From the NCBI RefSeq assembly GCF_000007925.1, contig NC_005042.1, positions 248,001 to 312,000 of the forward strand: a stretch of DNA of 64,000 bases. Reading direction: 5' to 3'. Shown piece after piece: positions 37,201-39,765 of this stretch. The notes under the pieces are model-generated. The model did no database searches. It was not told the origin of the DNA and saw nothing but the letters and a program-made list of their open reading frames with translations. Origin of the DNA: Prochlorococcus marinus subsp. marinus str. CCMP1375. Lineage in GTDB: Bacteria; Cyanobacteriota; Cyanobacteriia; PCC-6307; Cyanobiaceae. Every line of letters starts with the position of its first letter. Position 1 is the stretch's first letter. The position numbers and the translations under genes were made by a program.

Positions 37201-37956
37201 ATGATCGGCAAAACCATTACCAACTTTTCTCCGCTTACGGAAGGCATATTACTGAAAAGATATAAACGTTTTCTTGCAGATGTGGAGCTTGACACTGGGG
37301 AAGTAGTAACTGCACATTGTGCGAATACAGGACCCATGAAAGGTGTATTACATGTTGGCGGACGTGTCAGATTAAGACACTCTCCTTCACCTTCTAGGAA
37401 GTTAAGTTGGTCTTGGGAACAAGCTCAGGTTCCTTCTGGTCAATCTTTTTCTTGGGTTGGAGTTAATACTGCTTTACCTAATAAGTTGGTTAGGCTTGCA
37501 ATTGAGGCAGGTTGCTTAAAGCAAGAGTTAGGTGAGATTTTTGAAATTAAAAATGAAGTGACGTATGGGGTTGCAAGGAAAAGTCGAATTGATTTGCTAT
37601 TAACTCCTCATTTCAACAATTCAGATTCTCGTAAGATTTTTGTAGAAATTAAAAATACAACTTGGGCTAAAGGGTCTACAGCTGTTTTCCCTGACACAGT
37701 TACAACAAGAGGACAAAAGCATTTGCAAGAAATGATTAATGAAGTGCCTTCTTCACGAGCGGTCTTGGTTCCTTGCATTAGCAGAAATGATATTGAAGTA
37801 TTTGTTCCTGGTGATTCAGCTGATGCTAAGTATGGCGATCTTTTTAGATTGGCTCTGAATGCAGGAGTAGAAGTAATACCTTGCGCTTTTGATTTTCATT
37901 TGGATTGCATCACTTGGGAAGGCACTAAACCATTCCTTAAAGGAGAAAATTTTTGA
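37201..37956 (+). CDS. sfsA: SfsA-like protein
   Basis: The 251-residue protein matches the sugar-fermentation-stimulation family. It has LLKRYKRFLADVELDTGEVV, AHCANTGPMKGVLHVG, a nuclease-like core EVTYGVARKSRIDLLLT with FVEIKNTTW, FPDTVTTRGQKHLQEM and SADAKYGDLFRLALNAGVEV. The ID-x(n)-EIK arrangement is a PD-(D/E)XK nuclease core. The biological role is poorly defined. It converges on the small membrane-protein gene upstream of amt1. Confidence 0.94.
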   Translation: MIGKTITNFSPLTEGILLKRYKRFLADVELDTGEVVTAHCANTGPMKGVLHVGGRVRLRHSPSPSRKLSWSWEQAQVPSGQSFSWVGVNTALPNKLVRLAIEAGCLKQELGEIFEIKNEVTYGVARKSRIDLLLTPHFNNSDSRKIFVEIKNTTWAKGSTAVFPDTVTTRGQKHLQEMINEVPSSRAVLVPCISRNDIEVFVPGDSADAKYGDLFRLALNAGVEVIPCAFDFHLDCITWEGTKPFLKGENF

Positions 37957-37960
37957 TTCT

Positions 37961-38107
37961 TTAGAATATTTTTGTCTTAATTACAAAACTAAGTAAACCT
38001 ATAGAAACTAGAGCCAAGAGTGTACCTCCTGCGATCATTACATTGGATCGTTCAGAAGCTTGTCTGGGGTTGCTTTTTTTAGAGACAATAGCTTTTTTGG
38101 TTTCCAT
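37961..38107 (-). CDS. 48-residue single-span membrane protein
   Basis: A short gene runs from ATG 38107 to TAA 37961. It starts METKKAIVSKKSNPRQASER, a basic hydrophilic stretch of about 20 residues, followed by one clear membrane segment (about 23-42) and a short Lys-containing end. Positive-inside charge predicts a cytosolic N-terminus. It is convergent with sfsA (4-base gap) and divergent from amt1. The NtcA box at 38156-38169 lies 49 bases before its start and could serve both genes. I do not recognise a family, and annotation programs could miss it because of its size. Confidence 0.6.
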   Translation of the reverse strand: METKKAIVSKKSNPRQASERSNVMIAGGTLLALVSIGLLSFVIKTKIF

Positions 38108-38155
38108 GGTTTGGGAACTTAAATTCTGACTAAAGAGATACCAATTCTTAGTTAT

Positions 38156-38169
38156 GTATTAATGATTAC
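38156..38169 (+). promoter_or_regulatory. NtcA-binding site upstream of amt1
   Basis: GTATTAATGATTAC is an exact GTA-N8-TAC match, lying 87 bases before the amt1 ATG. NtcA-activated promoters usually have a TA-N3-T box 20-24 bases further on; TATTTG at 38194-38199 is at the right distance but imperfect. amt1 is a well-known NtcA target in cyanobacteria and ntcA itself is in this window. The remainder of 38108-38256 shows nothing else recognised. Confidence 0.75.
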
Positions 38170-38256
38170 CAGATAGCAACTCTATTTTACCCATATTTGT
38201 ATTTGTAATGGCTGCGTTTCTAGAAAATCAGCCGATATGACTCTTTCTATCTTTTT

Positions 38257-39765
38257 ATGACCACTGCTTTGCAATCGCCGCCAAGGCGTCGCATTGCCCG
38301 CCTTCAAGAAGTCAGTCTTCTTGAAGGGCCAATGCTTCTCCTCCGTAGCATTCGTGGATTTCGATCCAATCAATCCTTGATTTGGTTGGCAACAGTTCCA
38401 TTGGCACTTTTAGGCTTAGGGGTTTTTGGGTTTGCTGCTCGTGCAGGCGTAGGACTATCTGATTTATCAGGCGCTCAAGCTGCGAGCTTCTTGGCAGATA
38501 ACCTATGGCTTTTTATAGCAACGATCCTTGTAATTTTTATGAATGCTGGCTTCGCAATGGTTGAAGCTGGGATGTGTCGTCAAAAGAATGCAGTGAACAT
38601 TTTGGCCAAAAACCTTTTTGTTTTTGCTCTTGCTGTAACTGCTTATTGGTTCATTGGTTATTCCATAATGTATGGAGGAACTCCAATTATTGGTGGAGTA
38701 ATTTTTTCTAATGGCTTTTTCTTCAACCCTGATCCGTCAGATGCACTTAGTTGTGCCGCTGGATTAGGAGCTGATGGATGTAGTCAATTAGTCCCTGCAG
38801 TAGACTTCCTCTTTCAGGCTGCTTTTGCAGGTACAGCAGCAACTATTGTTTCTGGTCTTGTAGCAGAGAGAGTGAAGTTTGGAGAATTTGTTGTTTTCTC
38901 GCTAGTCCTTACTGCTTTCATATATCCAATTGCTGGTAGTTGGCAGTGGAATGGCGCAGGTTGGTTATCGCAGTTAGGTTTCATTGATTTTGCGGGCTCT
39001 TCAATTGTCCACTCAGTTGGGGGATGGGCTGGTCTTGTAGGAGCAATGCTTCTTGGACCAAGAATTGGCAAATTTGTTGATGGGAAGCCCCAAGCAATGC
39101 CAGGGCACAACATGGCAATCGCAACTCTTGGTGCTCTGATCCTTTGGATTGGTTGGTATGGCTTTAACCCAGGTTCAGAGTTGGCTATGGATGAATATGT
39201 AGCTTACGTTGCAGTTACAACAACTCTTGCAGCAGCTGGTGGAGCTATTGCAGCTACATTGCTTTCTACTCTTACTTCCGGCAAGCCAGATCTAACAATG
39301 ATCATTAATGGAATATTGGCTGGTCTTGTAAGCATTACTGCTGGCTGTGGAAACATGACACTTTCTGGATCTTGGCTTGCAGGATTTGTTGGAGGCTTAA
39401 TAGTTGTTTTCGCAGTTTCTGCTTTGGATTCAGCTGGAATAGATGACCCAGTTGGAGCTTTCTCAGTTCACGGTGTATGCGGCGTTTGGGGAACAGTTGT
39501 TATTGGTCTCTGGGGCGTTGATGGAATGGATCCAGGAGCAGCTGGGATTGGCTTGTTTAATGGGGGAGGACTAAACACTTTGCTTATTCAGGCACTTGGA
39601 GCAGGTGCTTATGCAATATGGACAGTAGTAACCTGTTGGCTAGCTTGGACTGTTATTGGTGGTTTCTTCGGTGGCATTCGTGTTAGTGAGGAGGAAGAGA
39701 TTCAAGGTCTTGATATAGGTGAACATGGTATGGAGGCATATCCAGACTTCGCTTCATCTAATTAA
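38257..39765 (+). CDS. amt1: Ammonium transporter Amt1
   Basis: The 502-residue Amt/Rh-family channel imports ammonium across the plasma membrane. It has about 11 membrane segments after a hydrophilic N-terminus of roughly 38 residues. Signatures are [19 protein letters not shown] near the first core helix, [33 protein letters not shown] with the first pore His, and [19 protein letters not shown] with the second. An NtcA box lies upstream and a strong intrinsic terminator downstream. The gene is monocistronic. Confidence 0.97.

Follow-up and report, generated by a model that had tools for sequence, protein, structure and literature searches.

A conserved small membrane-protein gene of Prochlorococcus lies beside a probable NtcA site of amt1

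The short minus-strand reading frame between sfsA and amt1 of Prochlorococcus marinus subsp. marinus str. CCMP1375 is, as its conservation shows, a genuine gene of a conserved Prochlorococcus family. We consider it probable that this gene was relocated into the sfsA-amt1 gap, that the NtcA-type box beside it belongs to amt1 and was not recruited to activate it, and that the partner of its product is not Amt1. The small gene is thus real, and its neighbourhood was over-read in the earlier note on this DNA. All coordinates refer to the window, the whole stretch of 64,000 nucleotides that was analysed (NC_005042.1, positions 248,001 to 312,000). The result adds to Prochlorococcus a conserved family of small membrane proteins that is absent from the copies of Pfam, NCBIfam and PDB that we searched. 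It also illustrates how misleading the proximity of a regulated gene in a single genome can be, since the same small gene is found elsewhere in other genera.

The frame of 48 residues described in the earlier note is present with the right coordinates, flanked by the stop codon of sfsA (37956) and the start of amt1 (38257) (Table 1). The basic N-terminus and single membrane helix proposed there are supported by two predictions, a best Kyte-Doolittle 19-mer of 2.31 starting at residue 25 and an AlphaFold model with one helix over residues 14-47 (mean pLDDT 73.7). The product is most likely a one-span membrane peptide, and its basic tail, which is variable, would be cytoplasmic because of the positive-inside rule. 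Single-sequence searches gave no Pfam or NCBIfam family and no PDB match. When 17 members of the small family were compared with Pfam and NCBIfam, only scattered matches to unrelated families were obtained, each involving one or two members and with E 0.0018 and 0.0053 at best, and the best match of the family profile to PDB had an E of 2. Rfam searches at 10 loci of the small family found nothing, and literature searches, whose reach did not extend to supplementary tables, returned no title or abstract on the gene. A terminator-like stem was detected inside the frame, at 38015-38031 on the minus strand (one found by the scan, with a mean of 0.3 in shuffles).

Table 1. Features of the sfsA-amt1 region, in coordinates of the window.
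Feature	Position	Strand	Basis
sfsA, convergent neighbour	37201..37956	+	conserved murJ-sfsA-amt1 order; name from the earlier note
Gene for a 48-aa predicted single-helix membrane protein	37961..38107 (including stop codon)	-	ORF with ATG start, family conservation, selection test, model
Conserved 16-nt block adjoining the box towards the small gene	38140..38155		mean pairwise identity within the genus 0.76 (0.29 farther from the box)
CATAAC, possible -10 of the small gene	38151..38156	-	abuts the box with a one-base overlap; inference only
GTA-N8-TAC (GTATTAATGATTAC), NtcA-type box of amt1	38156-38169	+	13/13 promoters in the genus, 15/24 amt1 loci outside it
CATATT, predicted -10 of amt1, 22 nt past the box	38192..38197	+	13/13 genomes of the genus; composite unique in the genome
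amt1, ammonium channel gene, divergent neighbour	38257..39765	+	match in 171/201 genomes of the family; name from the earlier note

Relatives of the small protein, about 41-59 residues long and of the single-helix membrane type, were readily found. The protein alone as query matched 25 of 201 genomes of the taxonomic family (E<=0.1), and a profile of 17 members matched 12 of the 14 genomes of the genus, 4 extra matches there (E 0.016-0.096) being discounted as chance ones. The small family occurred in 32 of the 201 genomes altogether. When the profile was restricted to the 12 genus members, relatives were detected in 147 of 399 genomes of the order and in 7 of 44 genera (E<=0.01); the weak entries in this list were G053, G419 and a second match in G218 (E 0.0017-0.0038), and leaving out G053 and G419 gave 145 genomes in 5 genera. 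Profile comparison tied the genus members to those of two other genera, g56 (E 3e-13) and g17 (E 1e-9).

Selection on the coding frame was consistent in all three groups. pN was lower than pS in every pair compared (66/66 in the genus, 28/28 in g56 and 28/28 in g17), with pooled pN/pS ratios of 0.11 in g56, 0.30 in g17 and 0.53 in the genus, the last being rough owing to a high pS (mean 0.65). No stop codon interrupts the coding frame in the genus (12 rows), g56 or g17, whereas every other frame has between 1 and 53. One antisense frame also showed a lowish ratio (0.61 in the genus, 0.40 in g56 and 0.46 in g17), as expected from the mirrored codon positions, but this frame contains stops. The conserved frame, the excess of pS and the absence of in-frame stops bear out the coding status that the earlier note had proposed, and neither of two signs that it had named as fatal, stops in relatives or a ratio near one, was seen. 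We therefore give almost no credence to the idea that the frame is a chance open stretch or a decayed remnant; it is short, has the terminator-like stem within it and is missing from one genome of the genus, but its frame, length and selection are all conserved.

All 12 copies in the genus lie between sfsA and amt1. The genome lacking the gene, G190, keeps sfsA, the box and amt1 around a gap of about 237 nt with no small-gene frame (L100, G190:C4:98900-103500), and in G135, which is 82% complete, both the small gene and amt1 went undetected. Beyond the genus, the small gene is carried by 24 genomes from five genera (g4, g16, g17, g39 and g56), and none shows it linked to amt1: amt1 lies on the same contig but at least 300 kb away in 12 and on another contig in 10, the stretch around the small gene in G060 holds no amt1, and G094 has no amt1 match above threshold. 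Thus the conservation in relatives that the earlier note had proposed as a check was found, whereas synteny with amt1 held within the genus (12/12) and failed in the five other genera. Its suggestion that the small protein modulates the ammonium channel fares badly, as the family is unlinked to amt1 outside the genus, and a functional partnership of the two is weakly supported. The complete retention beside amt1 in the genus could reflect selected linkage, and shared ancestry explains it as well. With no linkage to amt1 elsewhere, the small protein would instead contact a complex of more general use in Prochlorococcus membranes, a proposal on function and partner that we make with low confidence.

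The small gene seems to have moved to this location. Among the loci L070-L099, sfsA adjoins amt1 without the small gene between them at 22 of 25 amt1 loci outside the genus, the other 3 showing no sfsA in the flank examined. Since the murJ-sfsA-amt1 order exists elsewhere without it, the small gene looks like the later arrival in an older neighbourhood. In G078 the gene stands in the row fam8-small gene-fam9-fam10, which in the window's genome reads fam8-fam9-fam10. The family profile gave no match in the 404-nt gap between fam8 and fam9 of the window's genome (best E 0.4, compared with 6e-20 in G078), so that the degenerate copy sought at the proposed former site was not found, and it gave none around the fam8 gene of G010 and G065. 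From this empty site, relocation is the simplest reading and the most likely one: in an ancestor of the genus, the small gene would have entered the sfsA-amt1 gap, most likely from the site that G078 still keeps. The evidence comes from a single clear row, compared between G078 and the window's genome, together with the gene-free fam8 surroundings in G010 and G065. Separate gain and loss may be the alternative, as other genera carry the gene at further sites.

The perfect GTA-N8-TAC reported in the earlier note is present as GTATTAATGATTAC. The pattern alone is not beyond chance, occurring 264 times per strand in the genome against 417 for a reversed control pattern. With the spacing extended to a -10 hexamer, however, GTA-N8-TAC-N22-CATATT has a single copy in the 1,751,080 bp of the window's single-contig genome, at amt1, and its reversed control has none; the composite is oriented to amt1 in 13 of 13 genus genomes examined, namely the 12 with the small gene and G190. 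In a scan of 29 amt1 loci, with L084 left out, a perfect box was found within 260 nt upstream of amt1 at 20 (5/5 in the genus and 15/24 in others). Among 16 loci outside the genus that were chosen for having a box, CATATT followed at N22 or N23 in 12 and CATAGT in 1, with neither in 3; in three further amt1 loci, CATATT stood at N22 in two and was absent in one. The box also precedes amt1 in relatives that have the small gene elsewhere. The more distant amt1 loci L090-L094 and L096-L099 lacked a perfect GTA-N8-TAC, but in several of them an imperfect version, such as GTA-N8-CAC, stood at about the same distance.

Promoters of class II activated by NtcA have GTA-N8-TAC followed by a -10 element about 20-24 nt after it, which is the geometry of the amt1 promoter. 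This geometry supports well that NtcA would activate amt1 through the box, to which it presumably binds. Activating NtcA sites are described as tending to centre near -41.5 (PMC5126843), and amt1 has been described as raised by nitrogen deprivation, in a statement drawn from earlier work (PMC5607370).

The same geometry is lacking on the minus strand, towards the small gene. On the small-gene strand, none of the 13 genus genomes has a TAN3T at 17-26 nt from the box, and the 300 nt upstream of 16 copies outside the genus (8 of g56 and 8 of g17, the start codon used being uncertain in 7 of the latter) contain no GTA-N8-TAC. The divergent NtcA control proposed in the earlier note consequently stands as regards an NtcA-type box at amt1 and is not supported as regards shared activation, the -10 geometry facing amt1 in 13/13 genomes and the small gene in 0/13. 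Divergent activation of the two genes by NtcA, combined with modulation of the Amt1 channel by the small protein, is in our view very improbable. The linkage in 12 of 12 genus copies and the box lying only 36-50 nt from the ATG of the small gene speak for it, and transporter modulators of this kind exist in E. coli, namely AcrZ (49 aa, acting on AcrB) and MgtS (31 aa, acting on MgtA and PitA) (PMC10710835). With 48 residues and one predicted membrane helix, the small protein falls within the size and topology of that type (below about 60 aa, one membrane helix), a likeness by description, not by direct sequence comparison; it differs in that only one genus has its gene linked to that of a transporter and in that its transporter role is hypothetical. 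Against the proposal stand the missing small-gene-ward TAN3T, the missing linkage in five genera, the missing box upstream of copies elsewhere and the distribution of amt1, which has a match in 171 of the 201 family genomes whereas the small family occurs in 32. The cyanobacterial NsiR6, whose NtcA site is centred 42 nt ahead of its start (PMC5126843), is a nitrogen-induced small protein and thus also one near an NtcA-type box, but in the present case the activating geometry is directed at amt1, not at the small gene.

Since both flanking genes run opposite to it, the small gene needs a minus-strand promoter of its own inside the gap, from which it would be transcribed. A consensus promoter scan of both strands returned none. 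Across the genus, the 16 nt that adjoin the box towards the small gene are strongly conserved (Table 1), and it is ambiguous whether this block is the small-gene promoter or an A/T-rich contact region of the amt1 promoter; at loci lacking the small gene, the box is also preceded by an A/T-rich block, though a weaker one (identity 0.45 vs 0.32). The hexamer abutting the box is CATAAT in 9 of the 12 gene-bearing genus genomes, CAAAAT in 2 and CATAAC in the window, while it is CATTAT in G190, which lacks the gene, and CATAAT abuts none of 19 boxes at 16 amt1 loci outside the genus.

The abutting CATAAT and the conserved block hint at a -10 element covered by NtcA, and hence at repression: bound NtcA would block RNA polymerase at the small gene while activating amt1. 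The products of gifA and gifB are soluble inhibitors of glutamine synthetase, whereas that of the small gene is a predicted membrane protein and its repression is putative. As small-protein genes repressed by NtcA (PMC7760959), gifA and gifB nevertheless offer a precedent, and a model for the small gene if NtcA blocks it. We regard repression as unlikely, though it agrees with the restriction of CATAAT at the box edge to gene-bearing genus genomes. The hexamer reads CATAAC in the window and CAAAAT in two genomes, no -35 partner accompanies it, the block is present, if weaker, without the small gene and may serve amt1, and the genomes are related, so that the counts are not independent. Repression is compatible with the relocation history and differs from our preferred reading on regulation. 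In its combined form, in which the promoter of the relocated gene would have evolved to reach into the margin of the NtcA box and so give a reciprocal nitrogen switch with the channel on and the small protein off, we hold it to be quite doubtful; if true, it would show a relocated gene acquiring regulation from its landing site. Our preferred reading remains that the box is an activating NtcA site of amt1, as its geometry indicates, and would not have been recruited for activation of the small gene.

The neighbours of the small gene at its other sites did not reveal its function, as only DUF3303 was matched among them (2 of 10 proteins). The small gene stands beside a DUF3303 gene in G152 and G110 (L118 from 8066; L119 7487-8100), and two DUF3303-like genes are present at other places in the window's genome, one of them in the row L116 without the small gene. 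In G060 the small gene was observed at another site (L120, G060:C5:28000-45000), near small proteins that appeared by eye to be ferredoxin-like and light-harvesting-like.
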